IMG/VR virus record: IMGVR_UViG_3300037804_000399
Span: 26,832-90,831 of that record
Direction: 5' to 3' (one strand)
Source: a virus
DNA: 64,000 nt
Part shown: positions 6,234 to 62,135 of the stretch, piece after piece
How positions within the stretch are numbered: the first letter of the stretch is position 1
How the letters are laid out: each line of letters begins with the position of its first letter
Position numbers and translations under genes: made by a program
The notes under the pieces: generated by a model
What the model saw: the letters and a program-made list of their open reading frames with translations, nothing else
Told to the model about the DNA's origin: nothing
Database searches by the model: none

Positions 6234-6244
6234 CATGTAAAACA

Positions 6245-6291
6245 CCTTGGTTATTGCTTATAGAACTATAAGTAATGACAACAAACCAAGG
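6245..6291 (+). promoter_or_regulatory. Hairpin covering the ribosome site of the endonuclease gene, with a nested late-promoter-like sequence
   Basis: Outer arms CCTTGGTT (6245-6252) and AACCAAGG (6284-6291) pair perfectly. Inner arms 6253-6263 and 6266-6276 pair over 11 bp with one G-T. The 3' outer arm contains the AAGG Shine-Dalgarno of the GTG start at 6300. TATAAGTA at 6267-6274 differs by one base from the late consensus, so late transcripts would start about 6280 and lack the 5' arm. The arrangement matches T4 genes whose early read-through mRNA is silent; function here is inferred. Confidence 0.6.
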
Positions 6292-6299
6292 AACATATT

Positions 6300-7268
6300 G
6301 TGCCAGCTAAAATTACCAATGAAATATTCACTCAAAGGTTCTATGTGAACTTTGAGCCTAAGTATATTATAATTAAAGATTCCTTTATTAAAATGAGTAG
6401 TAAGGTAGGAATCAATTGTCCTGATCACGGAGATAATTGGGTGATTGCAAGTAGTTTATTTAGAAAGGATATTTCTTTACCTTGTCCTATTTGTTCAAGA
6501 CAAAAACTTAGTAAAAATATGCAACATACGTGTGAAGAGTTTGTACAAAAAGCAAAGTCATTCTCAAACTCTTCACATATTGACTACTCAAAAGTTGAGT
6601 ATAAAAATACTAACACCCCTGTTGTATTAATTTGTAAAGAACATGGTGAGTTTAAGTGTACTCCAAGAGCCCATTTGAGACTTCTACGAGATGGTGGCAC
6701 ACCTTGTAAGAAATGTAGAGGAAAGTCTCAATTAAAATCACATGACCAAGTTATTGAATCTTTTAGAAAAATACATGGTAACATGTATGATTATTCCAAA
6801 GTTGATTATAAAGGAGCTACTAAAAAAGTAATTATCACTTGTCCCAAACACGGTGAATTTCATCAAGTGGTTAGAAATCATTATTCAGGTGCTGGATGTC
6901 CAGTGTGCTGCGAATCGAAAGGTGAAAAGATTGTAAGACAATCACTAGAAGAGTCAAACATAAGTTTTATTAAAGAATATAAATTCGATGATTGCAGAGG
7001 TTACAAGCGACCACTTCCATTTGATTTTTATCTTCCTGAATTACATATTTGTATTGAGTATGATGGAATACAACATTTTGCTGGTGGCGATCATCACTTT
7101 GGTAAGAAAGGAGGATTTGAGGCTACTCAAAAGAACGATGACATCAAGACAAATTTCTGTAATGATAACGGCATTCAATTAATTAGAGTTGATTATACAA
7201 TGACAAGAGAAACAATCATAAATACTATTACTGAATTACACAATCAAAAGGAATACAAGTATGAATAA
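6300..7268 (+). CDS. Zinc-ribbon PD-(D/E)XK endonuclease, probable free-standing mobile endonuclease
   Basis: A 322-residue protein with GTG start. It has three repeats of about 60 residues, each with a C-x-x-H-G motif and a later C-x-x-C pair (residues about 40-65, 108-140 and 176-203), likely zinc-binding DNA-contact modules; two also carry a YDYSKV/IDYSKV turn. The C-terminal domain (about 205-315) has F-D-F-Y-L-P, I-E-Y-D-G-I-Q-H-F and N-G-I-Q-L-I-R-V, typical of the VSR-like/EDxHD branch of PD-(D/E)XK nucleases. It sits between a neck gene and tagged genes, behind a ribosome-site hairpin, as T4 homing endonuclease genes do. Its target is unknown. Confidence 0.7.
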   Translation: MPAKITNEIFTQRFYVNFEPKYIIIKDSFIKMSSKVGINCPDHGDNWVIASSLFRKDISLPCPICSRQKLSKNMQHTCEEFVQKAKSFSNSSHIDYSKVEYKNTNTPVVLICKEHGEFKCTPRAHLRLLRDGGTPCKKCRGKSQLKSHDQVIESFRKIHGNMYDYSKVDYKGATKKVIITCPKHGEFHQVVRNHYSGAGCPVCCESKGEKIVRQSLEESNISFIKEYKFDDCRGYKRPLPFDFYLPELHICIEYDGIQHFAGGDHHFGKKGGFEATQKNDDIKTNFCNDNGIQLIRVDYTMTRETIINTITELHNQKEYKYE

Positions 7269-13828: not shown

Positions 13829-13854
13829 TTTCCAGTAAAATTAAATTACTATCG

Positions 13855-13887
13855 AAACCTGGAGTTTTTTTCTCCGGGTTTCTTTTT
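13855..13887 (+). terminator. Intrinsic terminator
   Basis: AAACCTGGAG (13855-13864) pairs with CTCCGGGTTT (13872-13881) with one T-G pair; TCTTTTTG follows. It separates the acidic protein from gp6. Confidence 0.85.
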
Positions 13888-13894
13888 GTCTACG

Positions 13895-13902
13895 TATAAA
13901 TA
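13895..13902 (+). promoter_or_regulatory. T4-type late promoter TATAAATA
   Basis: An exact consensus match 34 bp upstream of gp6 and directly after the terminator; probably drives the baseplate block. Confidence 0.85.
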
Positions 13903-22400: not shown

Positions 22401-23094
22401 GACTACGACTACAACGACTGGTGTACCTACAACAACAACTACTCCGGCTCCAATATTAAGCTATGAGTATGAAGAATGTTTTCCAGTTACAACAACTACT
22501 GCGGCTCCAACAACGACTCCGACTCCAACCACTAGTACAACATCTGCGCCGATGGGAGCAGTTGGAACTCCGAACGGTGATCCGACTATGTTGATAACTC
22601 TAAACTGGACTCCAGGTGACGCTACTAAAAACTATCTAGGAGAAAGCTGGACTCCTGGAGAGACAAAAATAGCTTATTCTTCTGATCCATATAGAAAAGG
22701 AGTTTACACTGGCGGAGCAACTATCGAATCAGAATTCTGGGGAATTAATGCAGCTGGTGTGAACAACGATAAATTTGTATTAGCAGCATTCATTTCTGCT
22801 GCAGCGGGATATAGACATTATGATAAAGTTCACTATGCTGCTGAAAATGCAAAGATTACAATAGGATCAAATTACACTTTTAATTCTGCACAAGCAAGTT
22901 CAAAAATATTATCCTTTACTCCTGAAGGAAATGCTTTTCCATTTGGAGGTCCGTGGGGTACAGCAATAAATACTGTCAGTAGTGGAATATTAGTAAATAT
23001 TGGCCAAGGATATATTCAACCTCTTCAGTTTTCTGGAATGGTTGCTCTAACAAACGGATTAACAATTTCATGGTCACAAGGAACTGGGTGGTAA
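16417..23094 (+). CDS. 7: Baseplate wedge gp7-like protein with giant Thr-Ser linker and C-terminal adhesin domain
   Basis: At 2225 residues this is more than twice T4 gp7 (1032). The N-terminal part (about 1-1430) is the wedge-like region and follows gp6 as in T4. After residue 1432 come Thr/Pro linkers, a beta domain at about 1489-1636 ending in a CCPCP cluster, a 266-residue pure Thr-Ser tract (1637-1902), two short L-S-(W/Y)-x-Y hinge segments with Cys, a second Thr-rich tract, and a C-terminal domain from about 2046. That domain has G-D-P-T-M-L-I and W-T-P-G-E-T-K motifs shared with the genes at 23096, 24584 and 26886. The tail probably projects a receptor-binding domain from the baseplate. 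Confidence 0.75.
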   Translation: MVDKKGSDFNQGELLKKYINNPEWIRTYETLWNTLETSTQLVGAEIHEKTRNYVQNLRDIDLCETKALRSIVTELQVDNMEIVDALPKEIQRLVDIFSINPSLLLTDGMVFEDYMETFEAEVQAIYAKYFPTQFFLRQFEFDDAEVKWNNQPIEEFVDRYACKVVNIINKYKEESESDIDELDITNEMLFDSSEPRFYDSSDVDFVGTLEGVIQNTIADRLYDQFSTDIETGIYRQSISEDGDNPVFGDVFGFTWIVDDENFMKVQIKANIETIFKAFNDSVILGESYYVPFQVFTVTQLSITSGLILPEHVSKTYTRSKVILNGVATFIDDEDISEWMALIVRRFEDSSFFIDDAESKIESLEYVQFRQKFPPTVTEYINLVDPAATEIDESFVWDIIGLDPLNEERDVLYHECYAGKTMLDLFIIAQFTDTLYKHWLEESYQSLVENILDQNFEFGTDADYKYRGVYQIIGDDAKTELDALAPSQFEKDHYLITLTNEVEQFFVYNGLEWLEQCPFRDLDRITEAAAESLLDTCKRIRLQRNNLKEIAQRHAIIGTNRAVESVFTDYVLRSFTQLEDWEMTTVTDDRNWRLVGAITLQDYEQTAAGLYVDDDIKIGTYKRVLVANQYTDYVVFRSKQTSTLVATEIGLSDEFEFNTDSVYNLNDILPSLGTLDSKVKVIEYWDTTEYFNIEPTETKYLTGPINKRISMKDVVNITDDGDLEIAETGELVEFIEGQSKYQIFNQYLDKGNPQYWNDNKETNYSTSRENSINFSDEEVSERKRFMGSYSPIDLVFSAGLSRIETPGPLRSSDIQAGDYYDVNFTVPDFANTAYTAAQLAAVDANATNGLDAMDLIQQEAYYTNLYSSLDDQEIFDDGAQWILSYKRGDAEKAEGLTFDDAKDWDPENVLHQTYILKRARTKAIRFWGQGADINFMSFKFDNWFKISLEEWLINNQDKHMTQFWNDVGMKGDWEADIRPILDQYWNMHASSGYLDTELYDIHKKYIGVSKSRLLEGAITKDPSTGTWDFENFVREVAHEGSHPAANYKNSLYPTIQHQPFLWNLVEKLAVVFPSVLFTVLVGEGEEVLNRLSQIDEFGNLIDSWKHTHQEFMSYQTRYEASTNTGIASISDPQIDRDGPFNPDALKELIKSNAEPLSDKSSFGNDFVEIFRNDYYGYASVFSDFYFLQAEKAKIQFHLDRIDGVKEFDIVGIPTGDEDLFGLRNQKIFQFAADQNEYHYTLYKDVNIKDCPGQLWVRYNNFPFSFPVAVDQTDLITYDDTLVSINQLETRDVSLVNVMNNCYDFGIQQNIIWALGDNHGELTWTVLNVGFTLNDEVRTSLYTIINNATPYVFLENEHYVGTHFNGDTIILVIYNEETNKFTNKYIDLIELVYLPDRTYSVGDDMRFFKDSDEALIQGHALSNTTVRICRPVDLPTTLPATTTTEGPIIVVPPATTLGPTTLAPPTTLAPTTTVGPTTTVGPTTTTTICPSLKEDLFVRWQYQSSYVHEQPTPRDIIVKVYRDPLSTFTGAFSVAYNTLDEGDPGSQWPRTQFPDTGPSAEKIKDYIPKADFIYFAEGQMEAEVKITILPSAQPENAEYFYIRMTDFLFNDCCEVNSNVVEQNPHMILITDRCCPCPETTSTTSTSTSTSTSTSTSTSTSTSTSTSTSTSTSTSTSTSTSTSTSTSTSTSTSTSTSTSTSTSTSTSTSTSTSTSTSTSTSTSTSTSTSTSTSTSTSTSTSTSTSTSTSTSTSTSTSTSTSTSTSTSTSTSTSTSTSTSTSTSTSTSTSTSTSTSTSTSTSTSTSTSTTTLAPTTSTTTSTSTSTTSTSTSTSTSTSTSTSTSTSTSTSTSTSTSTSTSTSTSTSTSTSTSTSTSTSTSTTTLAPTTSTTSTSTTSTSSTSTSTTLPPVLSWKYVPCPTTTSTSTSTSTSTSTTTLAPTTSTSTSTSTSTSTSTSTSTSTSTSTSTSTSTSTTTLAPTTSTSTSTSTSTTTLAPTTSTTTTTTTGVPTTTTTPAPILSYEYEECFPVTTTTAAPTTTPTPTTSTTSAPMGAVGTPNGDPTMLITLNWTPGDATKNYLGESWTPGETKIAYSSDPYRKGVYTGGATIESEFWGINAAGVNNDKFVLAAFISAAAGYRHYDKVHYAAENAKITIGSNYTFNSAQASSKILSFTPEGNAFPFGGPWGTAINTVSSGILVNIGQGYIQPLQFSGMVALTNGLTISWSQGTGW
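21325..22122 (+). repeat. Thr-Ser coding hexamer repeat (about 800 bp)
   Basis: This is an almost uninterrupted run of 6-bp units (ACAAGT, ACTTCA, ACATCT, ACTTCT) all encoding Thr-Ser, mixed so that perfect long repeats are limited. Gains or losses of whole units keep the frame. Two TTLAPTTS interruptions are visible near 21829-21850 and 22043-22070. Confidence 0.95.
22162..22449 (+). repeat. Second Thr-Ser/Thr-Pro coding repeat
   Basis: Further hexamer units after the first hinge, with TTTLAPTTS interruptions, ending in Thr-rich GVPTTTTTPAP. Confidence 0.9.
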
Positions 23095-23095
23095 A

Positions 23096-24019
23096 ATGGC
23101 AGATTTATATTTAGATGCAGATTACGGAAACTTTATAAGACATTTAGGAATATGCTACATGTTAGAAGATCCTGACTTTGTAACCCCTCCGGACTTTGCA
23201 GGTCCACCAGACGAGGTTGGATTTACTGATTGTGATGATTGTGAATCAACTCCTATTACAACAACCACTCTCGGACCTACAACAAGTACTACACCAGCAC
23301 CATTGTCAATTGTAGGACCAGTTAACGGCGATGGAACAATGCTAATTAAATTAGAATGGACGTCAACTGCAGTTGCAAGTGTTTCTATAGCCAGTCCTTC
23401 TCAAATTACTACATCTGCTGTTCACAATTACGAAACAGGAGATTCGATTACTATTAGTGGAACAGATACTACGCCGTCAATAAACGGAACACATATAGTA
23501 ACAAAAATAGATGCTAACAACTTTACTATTCCAGTCAATGTTACTGCAGTAGTTTCTGGTGTAGGAGCAACTGAATTTGCAACTGTTCCATTTGTAGGAG
23601 GTAGTTGGACAAACGGCGAAACTAAAAAAGTTTATTCACAGGCAGGTGGGTATGTATATGAAACTAGTTATTATCCTTCAATTACCTCATACTCTGGATC
23701 AGCTGAAAGATGGGTAAGAGTGGTAAGCGGAGACACATTTAGAGTAGGAGGATTCGAAAAGCAATTAGGAACTTTCGCGGGTAAAATCAGTGACGGAAAT
23801 TTAATAGTCAAAGGATTGCATGGAGCAAATTTGTATATGGATAACTATACTAATGGATCATATGGATTTGCTGGCACTCCTACAAGTGATAATATAGCAA
23901 GTAAAGCACTGGCTGCTGCTGGTATCGTGAGAGGATTCCCATGTGGAGCTCCTCAAAAATCATCTTCATTCGTTACTACGCATGATATAACTATAACATG
24001 GTCTCCACAAGGATGGTAA
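23096..24019 (+). CDS. Adhesin-family tail protein (N- and C-terminal shared domains)
   Basis: A 307-residue protein starting two bases after gp7. The N-terminal domain (MADLYLDADYGN, then I-C-Y, F-A-G-P-P and D-C-D-D-C-E) recurs in the genes at 24021 and 26886 and may be the attachment module. A short TTTTLGPTTSTTPAP linker follows. The C-terminal domain (G-D-G-T-M-L-I, S-W-T-N-G-E-T-K-K-V-Y, ending S-P-Q-G-W) is homologous to the end of gp7. An inserted beta segment with H-N-Y-E-T-G-D-S-I-T-I-S-G lies near residue 115. Probably a baseplate-anchored receptor-binding or decoration protein; the role is inferred. Confidence 0.7.
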   Translation: MADLYLDADYGNFIRHLGICYMLEDPDFVTPPDFAGPPDEVGFTDCDDCESTPITTTTLGPTTSTTPAPLSIVGPVNGDGTMLIKLEWTSTAVASVSIASPSQITTSAVHNYETGDSITISGTDTTPSINGTHIVTKIDANNFTIPVNVTAVVSGVGATEFATVPFVGGSWTNGETKKVYSQAGGYVYETSYYPSITSYSGSAERWVRVVSGDTFRVGGFEKQLGTFAGKISDGNLIVKGLHGANLYMDNYTNGSYGFAGTPTSDNIASKALAAAGIVRGFPCGAPQKSSSFVTTHDITITWSPQGW

Positions 24020-24583: not shown

Positions 24584-25564
24584 ATGGCTGATGTATATAG
24601 TATAGCACCAGATCCTCAAGGTTTAGGTAGAGATGTTGATAATTTAAAATTTAGCATAGAGATTCCAAATACATTAAATGTATCTGTAGCGGGACCTTAT
24701 CCAGCCGGCACTTATAAGGTTACGGTAAAAGTAGTTGATGATGTTACTATGGAATTTGGGTATGGATTTTTCAATGTAGTTATATATGCTTCCATTACAG
24801 ATTTTATACTTAATCAAACAAATACTCCTAACGAAGGAGATCCAATCAGTACCTTAATAGGTGACTTACAAGTTACTGGAGGAACCGCCCCTTTTGTTTT
24901 TGCACTAATAGCTGGATTTGGAGACGGAGACAATCCCCATTATCAAATAAATCTTGCGGATTTAGAACTAAGTGGTACTGGTGGATCTACAGAACCTACA
25001 GATTCAATTTACGCAAGAGTGACTGATGCAAATGGTGACGAAGCATTTGACAACTTTATTATAAACTTAGATGCTCCTGGTGCTCCATTAGCAACAATAG
25101 GAACTCCAAATGCTGACCCTACATTGTTTATTAAAGTAGAATCTGCAAATGCTGGAGGTACTGCATTATTTCCTTATAATTTCCTAGATGAAGATTTTAC
25201 TGACGGTGAAACAAAAGAAGTATATGGAACTTATGTTAATGTAGCTCTATTAAAATCTTGGACTATTGGAGCTGGTGATGATAGCGTCACAATAGCTGAT
25301 GATAAAGTAGTATCACCAGCATCATATACTGTTATAACTGCAAACTCCGCTAGTGAGAATCTTCGCCGAGGAAAAGACAACGGTGATTTTGTTTGGGGTG
25401 GATATTTTGCTCCAGATGCTAGTGTAAATGTAGTTAGTACTACCATCGTAGCTGCCACTCCTAATGATGTATTAGATGCTAGCAATTATGGCGAAGTTGT
25501 ATTTGACATTTCGGGTGGCGGGAATCATGTTAAAATAACAATAAGCGAAGGAAATGGTTGGTAA
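24584..25564 (+). CDS. Adhesin-family protein, C-terminal part (possibly split gene)
   Basis: A 326-residue protein with AAGGAATGG ribosome site. It lacks the shared N-terminal domain. It has a partial Ig-like segment (Y-P-A-G-T-Y-K-V-T-V), a cadherin-like domain closely similar to that of the gene at 24021 (E-G-D-P-I-S, V-T-G-G, H-Y-Q-I-N, L-E-L-S), and the C-terminal domain (A-D-P-T-L-F-I, F-T-D-G-E-T-K-E-V-Y, ending G-N-G-W). Together the two proteins equal one complete family member. Tail location is inferred from context. Confidence 0.65.
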   Translation: MADVYSIAPDPQGLGRDVDNLKFSIEIPNTLNVSVAGPYPAGTYKVTVKVVDDVTMEFGYGFFNVVIYASITDFILNQTNTPNEGDPISTLIGDLQVTGGTAPFVFALIAGFGDGDNPHYQINLADLELSGTGGSTEPTDSIYARVTDANGDEAFDNFIINLDAPGAPLATIGTPNADPTLFIKVESANAGGTALFPYNFLDEDFTDGETKEVYGTYVNVALLKSWTIGAGDDSVTIADDKVVSPASYTVITANSASENLRRGKDNGDFVWGGYFAPDASVNVVSTTIVAATPNDVLDASNYGEVVFDISGGGNHVKITISEGNGW

Positions 25565-25587: not shown

Positions 25588-25634
25588 ATTCCTCAATACT
25601 AGAATATAATTAAATTGTAAATGTATTGAGGAAT
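25588..25634 (+). promoter_or_regulatory. Inverted repeat covering the ribosome site of sulfotransferase 1, with a nested late-promoter-like sequence
   Basis: ATTCCTCAATAC (25588-25599) and GTATTGAGGAAT (25623-25634) are perfect 12-bp arms with a 23-nt loop. The 3' arm contains the GAGGAA Shine-Dalgarno of the ATG at 25640. In the loop, TATAATTA (25605-25612) differs by one base from the late consensus; transcripts starting near 25618 would lack the 5' arm and be open for translation. Confidence 0.65.
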
Positions 25635-25639
25635 AAAAA

Positions 25640-26770
25640 ATGATTATAGTAAGTGGATGCCCTAGATCTGGAACTAGTTTAACTATGGATATTCTTCGTA
25701 AGGCGACTGGCGAAGAGAACATGATTGCTTCAAAATTTCCACAGAAAAGAGAGTTAGAAATCACAAGAGGGGAGGACGAATCAGATAGTGATTTCCAAAT
25801 ACGAAATTATTTGTTTCAAAAATTCAAACGTCCAGATAGAGATGATGATTATACTGACATGAATCCAAACGGATTTTGGGAATGTAAATTTTCTGTATTA
25901 GGAGTCGGAGCTGAATACGGGTCAAGACTATTCAATTATCACTCTGCAAAGTTTACCGAAACACTATTAGACACTGGTAAAGATAAAATTTGTAAAATCG
26001 TAAGTCAAGGTTTAATGTCATCCGATGTAAGATATATTGATAAAGTAATTTATTTAATAAGACATCCTAGAAACGTTGCAAAATCTCATGAAAGATTAAA
26101 GAGAGGGTTTGATGTTAAAGTAAATGGCAAGAAGCAAAATATATTTGAAGGATTGACCATACACACTCCTGAGATGTATATAGGAGTTACCATTCAAGCT
26201 TGTAGATGGATTTTAGAAAATCCAACCGTGCCAATATTATTTGTTAACTTTGATGATTTGTTATCTAACCCAACTGAAACAATTGACACTATTGCAGAGT
26301 TTGTCGAGTTCGGAGATTTTGAAAAATCTAAAACTATTGTAGATCCAGTGTTGAATAGAAGTAAAATTCAAGACATCGAACATGTGCTTTGGGAAGATGC
26401 TGAATTTGTTTATGAACAGTTTAATAAACAAAACTATCAGGAAATATTAGATTACTTCGAAGATCCTACAAGAGCATATAGAAAATACACAGATAAATTT
26501 ATTTGCACTAGAACAAATGATGAAGTAACCAATCGTGATTGTCAGAGTTGTTTATCGAGTGACGTAGTCAAATACAATAAAAAAGTATTAGCCAATCACA
26601 AACAGATTGATTATTTAAAAGAACCTTGTATGTATGAATGCGGAAAGAATGTTGATACTGATTCATATAAAACCATTGAAGAAAGTATTAAAAACCATAC
26701 TTGGGATAATGGAAAGAAAATAATAGACGGAAAACTGGATGTTATTCCTAGTGGAAATACTTTAGGATAA
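25640..26770 (+). CDS. Sulfotransferase 1 (PAPS-dependent P-loop type)
   Basis: A 376-residue protein. The N-terminus V-S-G-C-P-R-S-G-T-S (residues 4-13) is the 5'-phosphosulfate binding loop of PAPS sulfotransferases, and I-R-H-P-R-N-V-A-K-S (R141 to S149) the 3'-phosphate site. A Cys module at the C-terminus (C-x(n)-D-C-x2-C, later N-H-K and E-P-C) is shared with the gene at 30336 and is not part of the usual sulfotransferase fold. The gene lies between adhesin genes, so a tail protein or a host surface glycan are plausible acceptors. Translation may be limited to late transcripts by the leader hairpin. Confidence 0.75.
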   Translation: MIIVSGCPRSGTSLTMDILRKATGEENMIASKFPQKRELEITRGEDESDSDFQIRNYLFQKFKRPDRDDDYTDMNPNGFWECKFSVLGVGAEYGSRLFNYHSAKFTETLLDTGKDKICKIVSQGLMSSDVRYIDKVIYLIRHPRNVAKSHERLKRGFDVKVNGKKQNIFEGLTIHTPEMYIGVTIQACRWILENPTVPILFVNFDDLLSNPTETIDTIAEFVEFGDFEKSKTIVDPVLNRSKIQDIEHVLWEDAEFVYEQFNKQNYQEILDYFEDPTRAYRKYTDKFICTRTNDEVTNRDCQSCLSSDVVKYNKKVLANHKQIDYLKEPCMYECGKNVDTDSYKTIEESIKNHTWDNGKKIIDGKLDVIPSGNTLG

Positions 26771-26783
26771 TATTTTTAGGATA

Positions 26784-26870
26784 TGGTTAATATATTCAAA
26801 GAATAATAAGTAAATAAGGATACTGTAACAATATTTTTGGAATACTTATGACTCGAGAATATATTAACCA
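26784..26870 (+). promoter_or_regulatory. Long inverted repeat in the leader of the large adhesin gene
   Basis: TGGTTAATATATTC (26784-26797) and GAATATATTAACCA (26857-26870) are perfect 14-bp arms. An inner pair (ATAAGTA 26806-26812 with TACTTAT 26843-26849) would extend the fold. The 3' arm lies 15 nt before the ATG at 26886 and within a 12-codon open frame. It has no T tract, so a translational control element is more likely than a terminator. Confidence 0.55.
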
Positions 26871-26886
26871 CATGGACAAATTATAA
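26848..26886 (+). CDS. Possible 12-residue leader peptide upstream of the large adhesin
   Basis: ATG 26848 begins M-T-R-E-Y-I-N-H-M-D-K-L and stops in TAATG, overlapping the adhesin start. A TTGGAA sequence 5 nt upstream could serve as ribosome site. Translating it would open the 3' arm of the inverted repeat and deliver ribosomes to ATG 26886. Too short to prove by composition. Confidence 0.35.
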   Translation: MTREYINHMDKL

Positions 26887-29800: not shown

Positions 29801-30323
29801 ATCCTTATTTGATATTGTACCAGCTACTGGAGTTGTAACATTCTCACCAGCAGTATTATTTGCTTCACCTACTGACAATGGTGCTAACAATGTATATGAT
29901 GTTGAAATAACAGCAACTAATTTAGGCGGTTCAGTTGCTCAAGCATACGCGATAACTATTAGAGATCCAGCTTTAGTTCAAGAGATAGGAATAGAAATCG
30001 CAGGAGATCCACATGCTGAGATTACTTGGTCTTGGTCTGACGCTGCTGCAACAAAAGATTGGTTAGGTGAGACTTGGTCCAACGGAGAAACTAAACTAGT
30101 ACATGATGAATTTGCAGGAGCAAATGCTTCAGGATTTTACAGAGGTAATTATTCAGTAGGAAGCATTTATGTTGGCGGCTCGGTAAATGCAACATCTGGA
30201 AATATATTTGCTTATGGATCATCAATTGGATTTATGTCTGGTTATGGTAATTTAAATACAGGAGTTGTGTTAGTATCTGGTACAAATACAATGACATTAT
30301 TGATGAAAGCATCATTAACTTAA
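26886..30323 (+). CDS. Large modular adhesin with six cadherin-like repeats
   Basis: A 1145-residue protein. The N-terminus is the shared domain (MANIYLDTDTHG, I-C-Y, F-G-A-P-D-E, D-C-D-D-C-E). Six cadherin-like units of about 95 residues follow, with the pattern F-x-I-x-x-x-T-G-x-V-T-F, A-P-D-F, (G)-A-N-N-x-Y-D, I-T-A-T-N; they lie near residues 54-150, 151-243, 490-583, and three from 740 to 1035. Between and after them are domains with the W-x-x-G-(E/Q)-x-K motif; the last has T-K-D-W-L-G-E-T-W-S-N-G-E-T-K as in gp7. Such arrays usually form extended stalks. A host-recognition role is inferred. Confidence 0.75.
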   Translation: MANIYLDTDTHGEYIKHNDICYKRVGPSTTEPATVFGAPDETGFADCDDCEFDPPVFFGEFDYETEEEGSLTAFTATATDTDTYEIIEQRDEAFFNINPVTGEIVWKTAPDFDDARDENYDNNYVLRIRATGPGGQTFQFYSVTVTNISELPEFYGPSTRERFDGYDEGMTITAHDTTSFSMIGGEDISKFSLDPTTGVLTFLAIPDFASPGDFDADNEYHVTVRATGPGGFADRNFTIFISEFPTARCTEYGADDILGNLPTNTHPTIDYKIEGMNLAGDKWVAQFARLMCDSNGVQAGRWYSVKANRGASGTLVFDTNYIETNLRHRWTTVAVSSLGFGDEDVGQFYFDIDKDSATIFMVVNYGLIRQGIRFSSTWRSNDYKDVFNLDGNWQHSFDSLGTSATLISSTWDNYNSGVSALGVQAPTGDWTNTATPTYIEDQKITDAMFGEIVFDIGSSGFASPIRVKLSTRRGTGINPDWNDVPAPVAPEIIGPTKYVVNDGVMPAFQVNVKDRTFEPTYTISGGADAALFTVDARGFVNFKVATNYSAPTDAGANNKYDLQITATNDQGADSETYEITVIGVSGVVGPIQTLNFSGSGTTDPTSLDNTVFVKYVGGGGEGVSAFNKTWNSGQLGHVFVDYTDASPNGESIAISIGDSVLNISDLSDTAIIEFTVRAGLTLDLEKILAPLADNDTSVGVESHTLDFTYNDSISDQFGRVTFTNGEVWEFLRGSNWPAPTAPVFTGATAHSLTTGYSNPFTATANPNTYDLNFAITGGADAAVFNITYDGTVTFIVPPDFSAPIDAGANNVYDLEITATNETGSTVQAFTVTVNDFTLPVFNGPFALNVDEEQTDILTVDVQFNDYPPTFSIVSGVDEALFAVDNITGVVTFIAAPDFLTPLDVGANNVYDFEVTATNPAGDQTQAYVITVDQLPLPVFTGTFILEISEGSAAFTAVATNTPTFAITGGLDQSLFDIVPATGVVTFSPAVLFASPTDNGANNVYDVEITATNLGGSVAQAYAITIRDPALVQEIGIEIAGDPHAEITWSWSDAAATKDWLGETWSNGETKLVHDEFAGANASGFYRGNYSVGSIYVGGSVNATSGNIFAYGSSIGFMSGYGNLNTGVVLVSGTNTMTLLMKASLT

Positions 30324-30335
30324 TAGGAAAATGAA

Positions 30336-31226
30336 ATGATTGTAGTAACAGGAACTCCTCGTAGTGGAACTTCATTAGCAATGTTATCATTGGCAAAGTT
30401 AATTGGCAAAGATAAAATAGTAGGAGATAAGTTCCCTCAGAAAAAGAAAGCTCAAAATGCTGCCGAACGATATGTATATGAATTGAAGAATAATAATAAC
30501 TTGAACCCTACAGGGTTTTGGGAAAATTTAAAGTATATATCCAATGGATTTTCATATTCATCAGAAAATGAAAAAGAGTTTTATAAACTATCGACATCCT
30601 CTGATCATGCTGTTAAAATAATTGCTACTGGGTTACCAAAAACAGAACCAAAGTATATTGACAAGTTAGTCATCTGTTTGAGAGATCCTCTTGAAACTGC
30701 AACATCACAAACCGGACTTGTTGGACAAATTGGTCCAAGTGAAGCTGACCCTAAAAAACAAATCTTTGATTTAATAACGATTGCAAAATATATGATAGTA
30801 AATCCAAAGGTTGATTACTTTCTGCTGAATTATTCAGATCATAAGATAAATGCAAAATACACTATGGAACAATTAAGTGCATTTGTAGAAGTACCTTATA
30901 AGGAAAGCATTTACAAGGCCACTGGAAAGAAAACAATGAAGCGTCCCGATACAAAAATTTGGGACGAAGCATTTTACATTTACAATTTAATGATACAGGA
31001 AAATTTTCAAGCAGTGTGTGATTATTCCAATGATGTTACAACTGAGCTATCAAGACAAACAAAATCTTGGTTTTGTCCAAAGTTTGATTTTTTAACTAAT
31101 GATGATCGATGTAATACGTGTAGAAGCAATAGCAAGGTAAGAGAAAACTTTATTAAAAAAGCAAATCACAATAAACATGATCATGAAAACGAACCATGTT
31201 ACTTGGATCTATTAGAACAGGAGTAG
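30336..31226 (+). CDS. Sulfotransferase 2 (PAPS-dependent P-loop type)
   Basis: A 296-residue protein. V-T-G-T-P-R-S-G-T-S (residues 4-13) is the 5'-phosphosulfate loop; L-R-D-P-L-E-T-A-T-S (R116 to S124) is the 3'-phosphate site with the same R-to-S spacing as sulfotransferase 1. Both share F-P-Q-K-(K/R) after the loop, a G-F-W-E segment and the C-terminal module F-C-x(n)-R-C-x2-C with A-N-H-x-K and E-P-C. It starts 12 bp after the large adhesin gene and is probably in the same operon. The acceptor is unknown; a kinase is unlikely given the PRSGT loop. Confidence 0.75.
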   Translation: MIVVTGTPRSGTSLAMLSLAKLIGKDKIVGDKFPQKKKAQNAAERYVYELKNNNNLNPTGFWENLKYISNGFSYSSENEKEFYKLSTSSDHAVKIIATGLPKTEPKYIDKLVICLRDPLETATSQTGLVGQIGPSEADPKKQIFDLITIAKYMIVNPKVDYFLLNYSDHKINAKYTMEQLSAFVEVPYKESIYKATGKKTMKRPDTKIWDEAFYIYNLMIQENFQAVCDYSNDVTTELSRQTKSWFCPKFDFLTNDDRCNTCRSNSKVRENFIKKANHNKHDHENEPCYLDLLEQE

Positions 31227-31229
31227 TAA

Positions 31230-31727
31230 ATGAATTGGATTTACACATACAAAGCGCAAATATTACAAAAACTTCCACAGTTTGATTCAAATTATGATGA
31301 GATAGAAAAGAAGATTCAGAAAGCTGACTGTCCTAGATGTGTAAAGACTCGATATGAATTAAAACTGAAAAGACAAGTTTCTCAATCTATGAAACCTGGA
31401 ATGTTTCCTCCACAACTCGAACAACTTCTAGCAGCTTACAATCCTTCATATGGACAAAAGAATAAAATCAAAACAGTAAGTCTCAAACCAGAAGAGATTT
31501 CAATACTCGATGAACGAAAAGGATGTATTGATTGCGTTAGAAAACATATGAGCCAGGCAATAATTTTACTTCGTGAATGTAATCAAGGGTATGGTACAGA
31601 CGAATTTGAGCACAAGTGGTTAGCTGTAGGTCATTTAGCCGAAGCAGCTGATGAAGCGTTGCAAATAAATCCAGCATTGAGTATGAAGATTAGAGATCTC
31701 AGATTAATGATCATGGAACAAGAATGA
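31230..31727 (+). CDS. Cys-motif protein next to sulfotransferase 2, unknown function
   Basis: A 165-residue protein starting three bases after sulfotransferase 2. It has C-P-R-C near residue 34 and a distinctive C-terminal block: G-C-I-D-C-V-R-K-H, a helix, then H-K-W-L-A-V-G-H-L-A-E-A-A-D-E-A. The two CxxC pairs with His residues suggest a metal site. The C-x-x-C-(R) element recalls the Cys module of the sulfotransferases, so an accessory role with them is possible but unproven. Confidence 0.65.
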   Translation: MNWIYTYKAQILQKLPQFDSNYDEIEKKIQKADCPRCVKTRYELKLKRQVSQSMKPGMFPPQLEQLLAAYNPSYGQKNKIKTVSLKPEEISILDERKGCIDCVRKHMSQAIILLRECNQGYGTDEFEHKWLAVGHLAEAADEALQINPALSMKIRDLRLMIMEQE

Positions 31728-37419: not shown

Positions 37420-37470
37420 ATACTATAGAGAGAATCACAAGTGCGTTTCCAATCACATTGGAGATTAAGA

Positions 37471-38043
37471 ATGGCTAGAAAAAGACACATATACTACGTT
37501 GGCAAAGAAGAATTGATGAGTGAGTTACGACTTTTCAATGAATCAATGGCAAAAGATCCACAAAATATAGGTACTGCTACTGAAGAACTTGGAGAAATGT
37601 TATTAAAGATTGCTACTAGGTATGCTACTCGTCCAAACTTTTGGCGATATTCGTTCCGAGAAGATTTTGTAAACGAAGCAATCTTTAGAATGGTTAAAAA
37701 CCTTCACAAAATAGATTTAAATCACCCGAAGTGTAATCCATTTAGTTACTTGACTATGATTTGTCATAATGTATTCATATTTTGGATCATGAAATCGAAG
37801 AAACATGAGAAAGCAAAACTAGAAATAGCAAGAGAACACCTTATCGATCTGGAATACATGAATGATATTGATAGGTCTCAACAATTACAAATTTTAGATG
37901 AAATTGAAACTGCTCAATTTGGTGAGAATGAAAAACGAGAAATGAAAACACCGAGAGCAAAGAAATTAGCAGATGCTAAGAAAGCTAAAGCAGAAGCAAA
38001 GGCAAAAGAAGAAGCAGAATCAACACCATCAAAAGAAAAATAA
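37471..38043 (+). CDS. 55: Late transcription sigma factor (gp55-like)
   Basis: The ATG at 37471 has a GGAG site 8 nt upstream and is preferred to the in-frame GTG at 37441. The 190-residue product follows T4 gp55 (185): K-E-E-L-M-S-E-L near the start, a central Y-S-F-R-E-D-F-V-N-E-A-I-F-R-M-V-K-N-L-H sigma region 2-like helix pair, and N-P-F-S-Y-L-T-M-I-C-H-N. The exact TATAAATA promoters in the window are its expected targets. The C-terminus is Lys/Ala/Glu-rich and lacks the hydrophobic-acidic clamp-binding end of T4 gp55. Confidence 0.8.
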   Translation: MARKRHIYYVGKEELMSELRLFNESMAKDPQNIGTATEELGEMLLKIATRYATRPNFWRYSFREDFVNEAIFRMVKNLHKIDLNHPKCNPFSYLTMICHNVFIFWIMKSKKHEKAKLEIAREHLIDLEYMNDIDRSQQLQILDEIETAQFGENEKREMKTPRAKKLADAKKAKAEAKAKEEAESTPSKEK

Positions 38044-45828: not shown

Positions 45829-46521
45829 ATGGCTGAAGACAACGAACAAACTAGACGGTTTTTAAATACTCAACGCCAAGCTGAATATTTATCTAACGAA
45901 CTAAAATATCAAAACGAGACTGTTAGTAAGACAGGTCAGAATATTGTTTCTCAAAACATTAATGGCGAGAAGTTTGATATTGAATTTCAAGCTCTTAACA
46001 GTACTGTGGTACTTAAAAAAGAATTACTACATAGAGTACGAGAATCAAATGGCATTATTGTTCCTGATACTATTGAAAAGAATACTCGTACAGATGCTGC
46101 GACTGTTGTTAGTAAAGGAGAAGATGTAATTTGGGACGATTTAAAAATCGGTGATAGGGTTATGTTTGATACTCATGCTGTTTTCAGACCTACGTTTCCG
46201 ATTTGCTGGTTGCAATTTGAAAATATTATAGCAAAACTTGATAAGGATGATAATATGGATCCAATAGGTGACTTTCTTCTTGTTGAAGAAATCCAAAATA
46301 CAGTAAAGAATGAATACGATGGACTTCTTGAAGTTCCAGATTCAGTAAAAGATGAAACTCCTTTGTATAAAGTACATAAGGTTGGTCCATTAGTAACAAA
46401 AGCATTTGTAGGTGATGTTGTAATGTTTAGAGGTGACACTTCAAACATTCATATTAATCTAAAAGGAAAAGATGTTTCGTTAGTTAAGGAAGGTGTCCTG
46501 TTAGGTATCATTCCGGATTAA
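45829..46521 (+). CDS. Tandem-duplicated GroES-like co-chaperonin
   Basis: A 230-residue protein containing two GroES-like barrels. The first (about 55-135) has V-V-L-K-K-E-L-L, G-I-I-V-P-D, V-V-S-K-G-E-D-V and I-G-D-R-V-M-F. The second (about 140-230) has P-I-G-D-F-L-L-V-E, D-G-L-L-E-V-P-D, V-H-K-V-G-P and V-G-D-V-V-M-F, ending L-L-G-I-I-P-D. Each has a mobile-loop position (S-N-G-I-I-V / Y-D-G-L-L-E). Single GroES or T4 gp31 are about 97-111 residues. It probably works with the phage GroEL at 53992 or replaces host GroES, as gp31 does for capsid protein folding. Confidence 0.75.
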   Translation: MAEDNEQTRRFLNTQRQAEYLSNELKYQNETVSKTGQNIVSQNINGEKFDIEFQALNSTVVLKKELLHRVRESNGIIVPDTIEKNTRTDAATVVSKGEDVIWDDLKIGDRVMFDTHAVFRPTFPICWLQFENIIAKLDKDDNMDPIGDFLLVEEIQNTVKNEYDGLLEVPDSVKDETPLYKVHKVGPLVTKAFVGDVVMFRGDTSNIHINLKGKDVSLVKEGVLLGIIPD

Positions 46522-53991: not shown

Positions 53992-55620
53992 ATGAAAAAA
54001 ATTACTTTTGACGGTGAAGCTCGTTCTAAAATTCTTAATGGAGTAGCACAACTTGCAAAAACGGTAAAGAGCACTTTAGGTCCACAAGGTTGTAATGTGG
54101 TAATCGATAAAGGGAATCTAGCTATTCCTGTTATCACAAAAGATGGAGTGTCGGTTGCACGTGAAATTCATATTCCTGATAGAGTAGAAAACATTGGTGC
54201 GCAATTAGTAAAGAATGTTGCTAATCAAACTAATGATGTTGCTGGTGACGGTACAACTACTGCTACTGTTCTTGCTGAAGCAATCTATACTGAAGGTCTA
54301 AAAACAGCTGCTGCAGGAATGAGCACTGCTAGATTGAAAGAAGGTATAGAAATCGCAACTAAACTTGTTATAGCTCATTTAAATGATGTTAAAGTTGATG
54401 TTACAGATGATATGTTAGAGAAGATTGCTACTATATCTGCAAACAACGATAGTGAAATTGGAAAGTTGATTGCTGCATCTATTTTAAAGGTCGGTACTGA
54501 TGGAACTGTTCGTGTTGAAAATTCTCATACTTCAGAAACACATCTTACCTCAATTGATGGATTCCAATATGATAGAGGAATGATTTCTCATTACTTCTGT
54601 ACTGATGATGACATGATTGGTGCTGAGTATGAAGACGCATTTGTACTTTGTTATGATGGTGAAATTGATAATGCAAATGACATTCTCCCACTACTAGGAA
54701 ACTTTTTAAAGACACATAACAATGCTCCTCTTGTAATTGTGTGTGATGATATTAAAGCTGATGCTCTTACAACTATTGTTCAAAATCATTTAGCGGGAAG
54801 ACTTCGTGTACTGCCTGTTAAAACTCCTGGTTTTCATGAAAGTAAACAATCGATGCTTGAAGACGTAGCTTGTATTACTGGTGCAGTAGCAATTACAGCC
54901 AACTGTGGTATTAAGTTAGACGAAGCCTCTCTTGATGTCCTCGGAAAGGTTAAAAAGATTGTTGCTACATCAACTAGTACAACCATTTATGGATCTGTCC
55001 CAAAAGATGTTATTGATTCAAGAGCAAAATTGGTTCGTGAACAATTAGCAAGTGCCAAGAGTGAATATGCTCAGTTTAATAACAAACTAAGACTTGCTCG
55101 TTTAACTACAGGTATTTCAATCATCAATGTTGGTGGTGCTAATGAAGTAGAGCTTAAAGAAAAGAAGGATCGTATTGAAGATTCATTAAATGCTACAAAA
55201 GCAGCACTAAAGAAAGGTGTTGTTCCTGGTGGTGGTATTGCTTTACTTAGAGCAGGCGAAGCTATCAAATCTAAAATTGCAAAAATGAAATTACATCTTG
55301 AGGTGAAGGCTGGAGTTGATATTATTATCAACGCAACTAAATCTCCGATCAGAACCATTTGTGAAAACGGTGGAAATAACGGCGAAGTTATTTCAAATAA
55401 AGTTCTTGAACAGTCAGATGTTAATTATGGATATGATGCTCGTAATGAAGTTTACGGTGATATGTTTAAAGCAGGAGTTATTGATCCAGTTCTAGTTACA
55501 ATGACTGCTTTGACAAATGCAAGTTCAATCAGTGCACTTCTTTTGACTACAAATGCAGTTATAACTTTAGATCCAGAAGCTTATCATAAAATGAAAGCTG
55601 TTGCTGAATCTAATAACTAA
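53992..55620 (+). CDS. groEL: Phage chaperonin GroEL
   Basis: The full-length 542-residue chaperonin compares with 548 in E. coli. The ATP site is conserved: D-G-V-S-V-A, A-G-D-G-T-T-T-A-T-V-L-A, and the late P-G-G-G-I-A-L; the catalytic Asp position in R-I-E-D-S-L-N-A-T is present. The C-terminus lacks the GGM repeats of bacterial GroEL. It has its own promoter and an AAGGAAAC ribosome site. T4 itself relies on host GroEL. Together with the double GroES at 45829 it may form a phage chamber for folding large capsid or tail proteins. Confidence 0.95.
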   Translation: MKKITFDGEARSKILNGVAQLAKTVKSTLGPQGCNVVIDKGNLAIPVITKDGVSVAREIHIPDRVENIGAQLVKNVANQTNDVAGDGTTTATVLAEAIYTEGLKTAAAGMSTARLKEGIEIATKLVIAHLNDVKVDVTDDMLEKIATISANNDSEIGKLIAASILKVGTDGTVRVENSHTSETHLTSIDGFQYDRGMISHYFCTDDDMIGAEYEDAFVLCYDGEIDNANDILPLLGNFLKTHNNAPLVIVCDDIKADALTTIVQNHLAGRLRVLPVKTPGFHESKQSMLEDVACITGAVAITANCGIKLDEASLDVLGKVKKIVATSTSTTIYGSVPKDVIDSRAKLVREQLASAKSEYAQFNNKLRLARLTTGISIINVGGANEVELKEKKDRIEDSLNATKAALKKGVVPGGGIALLRAGEAIKSKIAKMKLHLEVKAGVDIIINATKSPIRTICENGGNNGEVISNKVLEQSDVNYGYDARNEVYGDMFKAGVIDPVLVTMTALTNASSISALLLTTNAVITLDPEAYHKMKAVAESNN

Positions 55621-55919: not shown

Positions 55920-56189
55920 ATGTCAGATGATGAAACAAAAGAATCTGTAACTGAAACAGATAAAAGTGTTGCAAGAGTAACACCGATGTTTTTACTGTTC
56001 TCTATATTTCTAGTATTAAAATTAACAGAAGTTATAGATTGGTCATGGTGGTTCGTCACAGCACCTTTATGGATTCCAAGCGCAATCATAATTTCGGTAC
56101 TCTCACTTATAGTTGCAGTGGTGTTAACAGTTATCGTGGTAGTATTATTAATCATAGCATGTAGAAAGGTGTTGAAAGCATGTCAGTAA
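55920..56189 (+). CDS. Small membrane protein upstream of APS kinase
   Basis: An 89-residue protein with a charged N-terminus and two hydrophobic segments, at about 23-38 and 50-82 (long Val/Ile/Leu run), ending A-C-R-K-V-L-K-A-C-Q. Ribosome site AAGGATTT. It overlaps the APS kinase gene by 10 nt. Function unknown. Confidence 0.7.
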   Translation: MSDDETKESVTETDKSVARVTPMFLLFSIFLVLKLTEVIDWSWWFVTAPLWIPSAIIISVLSLIVAVVLTVIVVVLLIIACRKVLKACQ

Positions 56190-56677
56190 CGTTTTGGTTT
56201 ACTGGACTACCGTGTTCAGGCAAGACATCAATTGCTGATGCTATCCATGAAGTATTTCCAGAATTTGTAAGGTTAGACGGAGATGTTATACGGAAAGGAA
56301 TTTGTTCCGATCTAACATTCTCTGATAAAGATAGAGTTGAAAACATTCGTCGGATTGCTCACATATGTCAATTATTCAATGATAACAAGTCAATAGTACT
56401 ATCTTCGTTCGTCAGTCCTACTAAAAGCATTCGTGATCAAATTAAAAATATTGTAGACAATGTGATTATCGTTCATGTTGACTGTAGTGTTGAAGAATGC
56501 GAACGGAGAGATGTAAAGGGAATGTGGAAACAGGCTCGTGAAGGGAAGATTAAAAACTGGACCGGTATAGATAGTCCGTATGAAACGCCCGTGGACTGCG
56601 ATTTCTACATCAACACAGAGCAAGAAACATTAAAAGAAAGTGTGTCAAAGTTCTTACAAAAGTATTTAATGATGTGA
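56180..56677 (+). CDS. cysC: Adenylylsulfate (APS) kinase
   Basis: A 165-residue protein, slightly shorter than bacterial CysC (about 200). Walker A is G9-L-P-C-S-G-K-T16; L-D-G-D (33-36) and R39 bind substrate; S-D-K-D-R-V-E-N-I-R-R, F-V-S-P-T-K-S-I-R-D and W-T-G-I-D-S-P-Y-E-T-P are all characteristic of APS kinases. It converts APS to PAPS, the sulfate donor for sulfotransferases. No ATP sulfurylase gene is seen, so APS must come from the host. Two phage sulfotransferases (25640, 30336) are the obvious consumers. Confidence 0.88.
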   Translation: MSVTFWFTGLPCSGKTSIADAIHEVFPEFVRLDGDVIRKGICSDLTFSDKDRVENIRRIAHICQLFNDNKSIVLSSFVSPTKSIRDQIKNIVDNVIIVHVDCSVEECERRDVKGMWKQAREGKIKNWTGIDSPYETPVDCDFYINTEQETLKESVSKFLQKYLMM

Positions 56678-60334: not shown

Positions 60335-61543
60335 ATGGAAGACATGTTCAACATAGACGATGTAATTAAGTCACTTTATTTAGACAGTCCGTTTTTCGGA
60401 GTGGTTCTGAACGGAATCTCTCGTAAGTTTGAAGACAGAATCCCAACTGCTTGTGTTACAATGCACAAAGAACTATTGGTCAACAAAGAATTTTGGTCAG
60501 GGTTATCAAAACCTGAACAGAAAGCTGTTCTCAAACATGAAATTCTTCACTTAGCTTTCCTTCACTTCTCAAGATTCTATCTTCAAATGAAAGATGGTGG
60601 AGTTGAAGCAAAATTAGCAAACATTGCAACAGATTGTGCTATCAATCAACACTTAACAGACCTTCCTGGTGATTGTGTCACTCTTGAATGGGTTCGTGAA
60701 TGCACAGAAAGACCCGATCTCGAAGAACTTCAATCAGCTGAATATTATTTCAAAGCTCTTATTCAAAAAAAGAATGAGATCGAAGAAAAAATGGAGACTG
60801 ATCCTGAGTTTAAGAAGATGATGGAAGATCTCCAGGATGGTCATGGCGAATCTATTCAGCAATCTGAGAACGAACAGGGAAAACAGGACGCTGTTGCAGA
60901 AGCTCAAATGAGAAAATTGCTTGATAAAGCAAAACAAGAACAGGAAAAGTTTGAAAAGAAGAATGGTACTAAAAGTGGCAACTCTCTTTCAAGTGTTCTC
61001 CCATCATATGTTCAGATTGATAAAAATGTTTGGAAGAGAGCGATCAGTAAAAGTATCGGAAGTTCTCCTCAAGCAAGAACAATTGAAGTTTACAACCGTC
61101 CAAATCGTAGAAATGCAAAGTCACTTTATGGTAAAAAGCACGTAGTCGAATCAAGCAGATTATATGTTGGATTGGATACGTCTGCATCAATCACTGACGA
61201 AGAAATTGCAAAGTTTGTAAGTCATATCAATCGTGCAATGAAATCAGAAGAAGTTGTTTGTGATATCATTCACTGTGATTCAGTTATTCAGAAAGTTGAT
61301 CTTGGTGTAAAACAGATCAACCCGAAGAAGGGTATTGAAGTTGCTGGTCGTGGTGGAACAGATCTACGTCACATTCAAAAATATATCACTGAACGTGAGA
61401 ATGGAAAGAAGACTCGTCTTGTTTTACTCACTGATGGATATACAGCTTGGGACGATTGTCCAAGAATTGACACAACAGTGATTTACACAAAAGATCATAC
61501 CAAACTTGACTATGTAAAATACGCTGCAGTATTAAATGTATAA
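60335..61543 (+). CDS. DUF2201-type metallopeptidase-like and VWA-like protein
   Basis: A 402-residue protein. The N-terminal part has a zinc-peptidase motif H68-E-I-L-H72 in a helix, as in the DUF2201 putative metallopeptidase domain. A charged coiled linker (about 140-215) leads to a von Willebrand A-like domain with a MIDAS D281-T-S283-A-S285 and a later G-R-G-G-T-D-L. Such proteins pair with MoxR-family AAA+ ATPases, and one is encoded at 62946. Together they may act as a phage-borne chaperone or protease-like module. It has a GGAGAAAG ribosome site and a strong early-type promoter. Confidence 0.8.
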   Translation: MEDMFNIDDVIKSLYLDSPFFGVVLNGISRKFEDRIPTACVTMHKELLVNKEFWSGLSKPEQKAVLKHEILHLAFLHFSRFYLQMKDGGVEAKLANIATDCAINQHLTDLPGDCVTLEWVRECTERPDLEELQSAEYYFKALIQKKNEIEEKMETDPEFKKMMEDLQDGHGESIQQSENEQGKQDAVAEAQMRKLLDKAKQEQEKFEKKNGTKSGNSLSSVLPSYVQIDKNVWKRAISKSIGSSPQARTIEVYNRPNRRNAKSLYGKKHVVESSRLYVGLDTSASITDEEIAKFVSHINRAMKSEEVVCDIIHCDSVIQKVDLGVKQINPKKGIEVAGRGGTDLRHIQKYITERENGKKTRLVLLTDGYTAWDDCPRIDTTVIYTKDHTKLDYVKYAAVLNV

Positions 61544-62135
61544 TGGATCGTCAACTCCTACTCCTAAAATGATACAAGCAGTGACCTCTTTTTATAAAAA
61601 GAGGTCACTGCTACCAGAGAATGTAGATGTTTGTATCACTCCAGAATATAAATGGCACACTAGTGGCAACATTCGTATACACAGTGCCCTTCCATTTCCT
61701 GTGGACGTTGATTGTCATTGGGGAGACATTACAATATCTGAAGAAAATCTCAAAAGTCTTAAAATGCGCGGAATGCCTAAAATAATAAAAGGTGATCTAA
61801 ATATTGAGACAGATGTTCTTGATAGTTTTCACGGATCACCTGAAGAAGTAAGATCGTTAAACTTTACATCTATTTTAGGTGAGAATGATACTCGGAGAGG
61901 TACTCATCTTCGCCAGCCTTGGAACTATCCAAACATTCACGATCTGTCAGGACTACCAAAGATCATTAATGAAAATTTATTAATTCAGAGTCACGGAACT
62001 GCATTACATAATATTGACATATTATTTGAAACTCGAATAGGTGGACATGTAGACATCAGAGTTCCTAATCTAATATCAAATGCACAAAAGACCGAACTTG
62101 AATTATTTTTAAAGATGAGAAGTCACCTGGATTGA
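61536..62135 (+). CDS. Leucine-rich-repeat-like protein 1
   Basis: A 199-residue protein overlapping the VWA gene by 8 nt. The pattern L-x-I-x-(D/E)-x-L, with K-I-I-K-G-D-L-N-I-E and L-P-K-I-I-N-E-N-L-L-I-Q, resembles irregular LRR proteins common in T4-like phages. Codons 15-26 are formed by a perfect 36-bp palindrome, and no start with a ribosome site lies beyond it. Function unknown; possibly a binding partner of the MoxR/VWA pair. Confidence 0.6.
   Translation: MYNGSSTPTPKMIQAVTSFYKKRSLLPENVDVCITPEYKWHTSGNIRIHSALPFPVDVDCHWGDITISEENLKSLKMRGMPKIIKGDLNIETDVLDSFHGSPEEVRSLNFTSILGENDTRRGTHLRQPWNYPNIHDLSGLPKIINENLLIQSHGTALHNIDILFETRIGGHVDIRVPNLISNAQKTELELFLKMRSHLD
61577..61612. repeat. Perfect 36-bp palindrome inside a coding region
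   Basis: Two 18-bp arms meet at 61594/61595 with no mismatch. The half-site is AGCAGTGACCTCTTTTTA. It lacks a T tract on the 3' side, so it is not a standard terminator for + strand transcripts. Confidence 0.95.

Follow-up and report, generated by a model that had tools for sequence, protein, structure and literature searches.

The start site of ST1, a sulfotransferase gene of a T4-like phage, lies just downstream of a 12-bp hairpin that is predicted to sequester its Shine-Dalgarno (SD) sequence, and the hairpin loop contains a candidate late promoter. We propose that this leader is a translational lock of the type known from phage T4, with a late promoter in its loop, inside a likely phage sulfation system. 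We give this reading a probability of about 0.5.

The DNA analyzed (the window; 64,000 nucleotides) corresponds to positions 26832-90831 in a virus record 90,831 bases long. All of its genes are on the + strand. By gene content the phage is T4-like: it has a family-B DNA polymerase (phrog_262), a baseplate wedge protein (phrog_219), SbcC/SbcD (gp46/47) and a gp55-family sigma factor, along with primase, topoisomerase II, terminase and tail tube genes. A baseplate query found no close relatives, and no record in the phage collection matched ST1 or the surrounding DNA. The window also contains GroES-like and GroEL chaperonin genes (45829-46521 and 53992-55620).

A hairpin covers the Shine-Dalgarno sequence of ST1

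The ST1 leader and gene consist of the following features.

25588-25599, + strand: 5' arm of the hairpin, ATTCCTCAATAC, a perfect 12-bp complement of 25623-25634 that pairs with it in the RNA fold
25600-25622, + strand: loop of 23 nt that contains a weak inner stem (25605-25610 / 25614-25619)
25605-25612, + strand: TATAATTA, a candidate late promoter that differs from TATAAATA by one base; this one-mismatch class is not enriched
25623-25634, + strand: 3' arm of the hairpin, GTATTGAGGAAT, with the SD sequence GAGGAA (25628-25633)
25640-26770, + strand: ST1, PAPS-type sulfotransferase, 376 amino acids (Pfam Sulfotransfer_1, E 6.8e-8)

We found that the hairpin is far from what chance would produce. 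The initial annotation had described perfect 12-bp arms that bury GAGGAA, and complementarity, folding and shuffling all bear this out. GAGGAA lies 7-12 nt 5' of the ATG at 25640. None of 200 shuffled leaders equaled the folding of the native sequence (z = -3.97). Among the 98 gene starts in the whole record with sufficient upstream sequence, ST1 alone has a 12-bp stem covering the SD sequence, where shuffled leaders give 0.04; the next longest such stems are three of 8 bp each (approximately 1.3 in shuffles). Across the window there are six distinct perfect stems of at least 12 bp with a loop of up to 40 nt, three of which resemble intergenic terminators. Shuffles give 0.5 per window, a figure that counts nested stems separately.

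As in T4 gene e, the SD sequence is predicted to be paired in a stable stem. Its predicted openness is 0.001 in the full RNA and 0.81 in RNA that begins at 25617-25622. The stem starts 23 nt past the stop codon of the upstream gene (24584-25564), so a ribosome terminating there should not unfold it.

An Rfam search of the window found no RNA family at the gathering score. We also considered whether the arms belong to a shared mobile element and rejected this. A DNA pattern search found 18 contigs with the same 9-bp arms, 13 of them copies of one stretch; their loops and flanks differ, and none of the 18 resembles the ST1 leader.

Related leaders in this phage and in other T4-like phages

A second leader in the window has the same layout.

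6245-6291, + strand: hairpin in the leader of the HNH endonuclease gene (start at 6300); its outer stem of 8 bp covers the SD sequence, and its loop contains TATAAGTA

The predicted unpaired fraction of its SD sequence is 0.15-0.21 in long RNA and 0.64 in short RNA. The gene at 6300 encodes an HNH homing endonuclease (phrog_559, E 5.7e-70) and adjoins the head-tail adaptor gene. The earlier statement that the same arrangement recurs in this phage holds for this leader (6234-6299) and fails for a large nested hairpin (26784-26870; outer stem of 13-14 bp), which lies 3' of ST1 and before the cadherin-type gene at 26886. That hairpin was rejected as a third case because it leaves the SD sequence open (0.82-0.89).

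Similar leaders are known from other phages. T4 e, soc, 49 and I-TevI are described as having the SD sequence in a hairpin and a late RNA without the 5' arm (PMC3014915). Another paper describes an SD-pairing hairpin and late promoter likewise for I-TevII, I-TevIII, segB and mobE of Aeh1, homing endonucleases of T4-like phages being known for this arrangement (PMC2988022). When we recomputed the T4 e, 49 and I-TevII leaders with the same script, their layout and predicted switch were the same as those of ST1. The ST1 leader differs from these T4-type leaders in its late motif, which is TATAATTA and not the consensus, and in its cargo, a sulfotransferase. It also differs from seg43(25) of Aeromonas phage 25, where a strong hairpin just 5' of the ribosome-binding site is said not to hide it, as at 26784-26870 (PMC2988022); the ST1 hairpin does hide this site.

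A candidate late promoter in the loop

This phage very likely does have T4-type late promoters. The intergenic gaps (31 gaps, 2,475 nt) contain six exact copies of TATAAATA, against 1.0 expected, and none of 300 shuffles reached six. All six sites on the + strand of the window lie inside a gap or overlap a gap edge, and they include sites 5' of baseplate and head-tail adaptor genes. The whole record has 10 forward and 4 reverse copies. The phage also encodes the corresponding sigma factor.

37441-38043, + strand: late sigma factor, T4 gp55 family (phrog_234, E 4.9e-28; second search, E 1.3e-29)

T4 gp55 itself, used as a control for this search, gave E 2.9e-69. Both marks of T4-type late transcription are present, a gp55-family sigma factor and enrichment of TATAAATA before genes.

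The motif in the ST1 loop is the weaker half of the case for this leader. It had been reported as one base off the late consensus; it is (TATAATTA versus TATAAATA), though such a motif is within chance. One-mismatch sites number 15 in the gaps against 13.2 expected, and 108 of 300 shuffles reached 15. For a loop of this size, the probability that it has such a motif inside it or nearby, exact or one base off, is approximately 13%. RNA from TATAATTA would presumably start at about 25617-25620, given the T4 spacing. A host sigma-70 promoter at TATAAT (25605-25610) was considered and rejected; this is a perfect -10 hexamer, but it has no -35 partner among the 60 of 75 sites listed.

The position of the motif is like that in other leaders. 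It lies at -35 relative to the start of ST1, at -33 in the 6300 leader, at -37 in T4 gene 49 (AATAAATA), at -34 and -21 in T4 e, and at -26 in I-TevII. Both of the stems of at least 8 bp with a loop of up to 40 nt have a motif placed so that it would fire into the loop, where 0.49 would be expected from other starts. Two cases are too few to convince, and we regard this as suggestive only.

A somewhat unlikely alternative is that the hairpin limits ST1 translation and the loop holds no working promoter, a low level of ST1 coming either from polycistronic late RNA or from RNA cut by an endonuclease in the AU-rich loop. The strong evidence for the hairpin together with a promoter motif at chance level would fit this, and PMC2988022 mentions messages of T4 homing endonucleases that are processed by RNase E. 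However, the spacing of the motif agrees with that in T4 49 and in the 6300 leader, and after cleavage in the loop the two arms could still pair.

We think it improbable that the inverted repeat has another role (protecting the upstream mRNA at its 3' end, or a DNA operator for a dimeric protein) or none at all. The repeat does begin close behind the upstream stop codon, and arms with a 23-nt spacer could serve as a protein site, but the overlap with the SD sequence would then be a coincidence, at the 0.04 expected from shuffles. Nor is it an intrinsic terminator: the last paired bases are followed by AATAAAAAATG, with no U-run, and the hairpin is absent from the terminator listing.

ST1 lies in a late-type block behind a terminator

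The transcriptional surroundings of ST1 seem to differ from those of the known leaders. Genes with such hairpins are reported to be transcribed together with early and middle genes on long RNAs (PMC2988022), whereas ST1 has a terminator upstream and is part of a late-type block.

13854-13902, + strand: intrinsic terminator (13854-13882) followed by an exact late promoter, TATAAATA (13895-13902), heading the late block

From the promoter at 13895 onward, the block on this strand comprises a baseplate wedge gene, genes for tail-type proteins, ST1 and its paralogue ST2. The promoter is separated from ST1 by 11.7 kb of late-type genes, the first of which is the baseplate gene.

Promoters of a second kind, TTGACTT...AAGGGTGTATA, have a strongly conserved layout and occur at 160, 9133, 49945, 60286 and 62890 in the window and at 19213 in the upstream part of the record. 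These sites come from a relaxed text pattern and not from a model, and calling them early-type is our own reading. The pattern found no early-type promoter between 9.2 and 49.9 kb, and among those found the nearest to ST1 is at about 9.13 kb. Sigma-70-like sites between 16 and 35 kb are at chance level (75, with 80.3 expected).

With a terminator and a late block upstream and no early-type promoter in between, early read-through is an unlikely source of hairpin-bearing RNA. Such RNA is probably mainly late read-through. The initial annotation had supposed that, without such control, the enzyme would be made from early read-through RNA, which fits poorly with the terminator, the late promoter at 13895 and the intervening late-type genes. 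Its broader claim of T4 lysozyme-type control survives in the layout, the predicted switch, the gp55-family sigma factor and the exact late promoters, and loses the early-read-through premise. The full T4 lysozyme logic, in which early or middle read-through RNA over ST1 is kept silent until late, is thus quite improbable here despite a layout the same as that of T4 e and genes all on one strand that would permit long read-through, given the terminator at 13854-13882, the absence of early-type promoters by pattern between 9.2 and 49.9 kb and the chance-level sigma-70-like sites.

A proposed lock within a late-type operon

We suggest that the lock would work as follows. On RNA entering from upstream, the hairpin is predicted to pair the SD sequence, and ST1 would be barely translated. 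Because ST1 is inside a late-type operon, the RNA silenced in this way would probably come less from early transcription than from late read-through, for example from the promoter at 13895. Late RNA polymerase with the gp55-family sigma factor would start at TATAATTA in the loop, and the short late RNA, which would not contain the 5' arm, is predicted to leave the ribosome site free. The lock would uncouple the dose and timing of ST1 from those of the tail genes, while ST2 would remain coupled to the gene preceding it. ST1 would act, with the phage APS kinase, as a PAPS-dependent sulfotransferase.

In T4-like phages, lysis, capsid, nuclease and homing genes are already known to have hairpin locks that contain a late promoter. 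The ST1 lock would guard a modification enzyme in a late-type operon, and would amount to a control of dose or order and not to an early-late switch.

ST1 belongs to a sulfotransferase family that looks essentially viral

ST1 is probably an active PAPS-dependent sulfotransferase, judging from its sequence and model. In 18 aligned sequences (alignment A2), RSGTS, R141 and S149 are invariant; we take these to be the PAPS cofactor motifs, at the 5'-phosphosulfate loop and the 3'-phosphate site. C-terminal cysteines are also conserved in this alignment. The structure model (mean pLDDT 82.7) has a sulfotransferase fold. Its best structural match is 4gbm (Z 13.8, rmsd 4.2, 198 aligned), and the 50 matches listed are sulfotransferases, among them Teg12, Teg14 and StaL. 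The fold did not single out a substrate class: matches to tyrosine, carbohydrate and small-molecule sulfotransferases are all found within approximately 2.5 Z of the best. ST1 shares its Pfam match, fold and cofactor motifs with TPST1/2 and with the sulfotransferase domains of the curacin and olefin synthase pathways (Sulfotransfer_1/3). It differs from the solved PAPS sulfotransferases in that its family is nearly restricted to phages and has the conserved C-terminal cysteines.

The window encodes a paralogue of ST1.

30336-31226, + strand: ST2, 30% identical to ST1

ST2 has an open SD sequence and no hairpin, and starts 12 nt past the preceding gene. ST1 has no PHROG match, and a scan with the single ST1 sequence found no relatives. 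A scan with both paralogues found 21 viral loci, and one with the 18-sequence alignment found 31, repeats of the first set included. The same alignment gave three weak matches in 84,980 species genomes. With 31 viral loci against three weak genome matches, the family looks essentially viral.

We analyzed the leaders of 26 of the 31 loci, leaving out the duplicates L030 and L054 and the weak matches L055, L056 and L023. The gene upstream of the sulfotransferase could be read in 25 of these relatives, and in 19 of them the two genes overlap or lie no more than 24 nt apart; the 75-nt hairpin leader of ST1 is therefore unusual. The ST1 hairpin was found in none of the 26. Only L027 (0.11) and L045 (0.43) have unusual SD accessibility, with none of 60 shuffles as low in either case, and neither a gp55-family nor a T4-type polymerase match was found in the L027 record. 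Among 28 records, the phage of the window alone has a gp55-family match. One relative, the T4-like L038, comes from a record with a T4-type baseplate wedge (phrog_219); its sulfotransferase has GATAAATA at -38 and an open SD sequence, and the record contains no exact TATAAATA.

Neighboring genes point to possible sulfation of a tail protein

The gene just upstream of ST1 encodes a tail-type protein with a domain that recurs beside the sulfotransferase.

24584-25564, + strand: tail-type protein, with the shared C-terminal domain at 25070-25561

The domain has approximately 160 residues and is usually C-terminal; its other copies in the window are at 22513-23091, 23468-24016 and about 29961-30311. 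With a self-trained profile, seeded from two window domains and iterated over the same loci that it scored, 20 of 26 loci had the domain, as did four window proteins (16417, 23096, 24584 and 26886). Holding out each locus left the window group and 12 of the 25 groups of relatives with scores below 1e-3, and no reversed-sequence decoy scored. The domains of 16417 and 24584 were not recovered with window sequences held out. By BLAST, the C-terminus of 16417 matches a protein of L027 (37% over 198 residues, E 6e-27). In eight of the 12 held-out positives the domain is within 140 nt of the enzyme, in three within 0.56 kb, and in L029 it is 5 kb away.

A search with the domain alone found nine loci, six of them known enzyme loci. 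The other three (L064, L067 and L068, the last two matching identically) have no ST1-family sulfotransferase in the available DNA. These three and the held-out result (12/25) weaken the tail-domain link as a strict rule. In L064 (4914-6118), the domain is followed by a 232-amino acid protein that by eye resembles a glycosyltransferase and has no Pfam match; the slot may be taken there by another modifying enzyme.

The phage also encodes an enzyme that makes the sulfate donor PAPS.

56180-56677, + strand: APS kinase (PF01583, E 4.0e-50, above cut-off; G000:83014-83442, which is window 56183-56611)

The PHROGs label for this gene is kinase only. APS kinase (PF01583) is above cut-off in seven of 28 records, the window phage included, and below it in two more. 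By coordinates, four of these seven records (G005, G008, G011 and G020) have it adjoining a sulfotransferase gene; the sulfotransferase loci with an APS kinase directly next to them are L032 (2256-2816), L036, L040 and L033. In the window phage it is approximately 25 kb from ST2. Its presence along with ST1 and ST2 suggests that the phage makes its own sulfate donor.

The initial annotation had argued from late control to a virion substrate. This does not follow: the HNH homing endonuclease has the same leader, so the hairpin is uninformative about the substrate. Independent support for a virion substrate comes from the gene neighborhoods, and gene order makes a tail protein the likeliest target of ST1. 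Tentatively, the phage may have its own protein-sulfation system, in which APS kinase would supply PAPS and the two sulfotransferases would decorate the shared C-terminal domain of tail proteins. One would be coupled to a tail gene and the other released from the lock, so that modification would follow tail synthesis and yield a sulfated virion.

One paper describes what phage sulfotransferases do as unclear (PMC10580990). A literature search for the phrase "phage sulfotransferase" found no paper. A search for phage with APS kinase and sulfotransferase gave a match that concerned human enzymes, and APS kinase comes up in the literature together with auxiliary metabolic genes. The linkage of the family to the tail-type domain and to APS kinase offers a concrete target for mass spectrometry.

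Three further observations concern this DNA. A family with a weak DUF7944 match (in its L032 member) lies 3' of the sulfotransferase in the window (31230-31727), in L032 (2771-3448; the contig is also that of L007) and in L019 (5963-6649). The HNH endonuclease gene contains a 13-bp perfect inverted repeat at 6531-6577. A 16-bp perfect inverted repeat with a 4-nt loop lies at 61577-61612, inside the reading frame 61536-62135.
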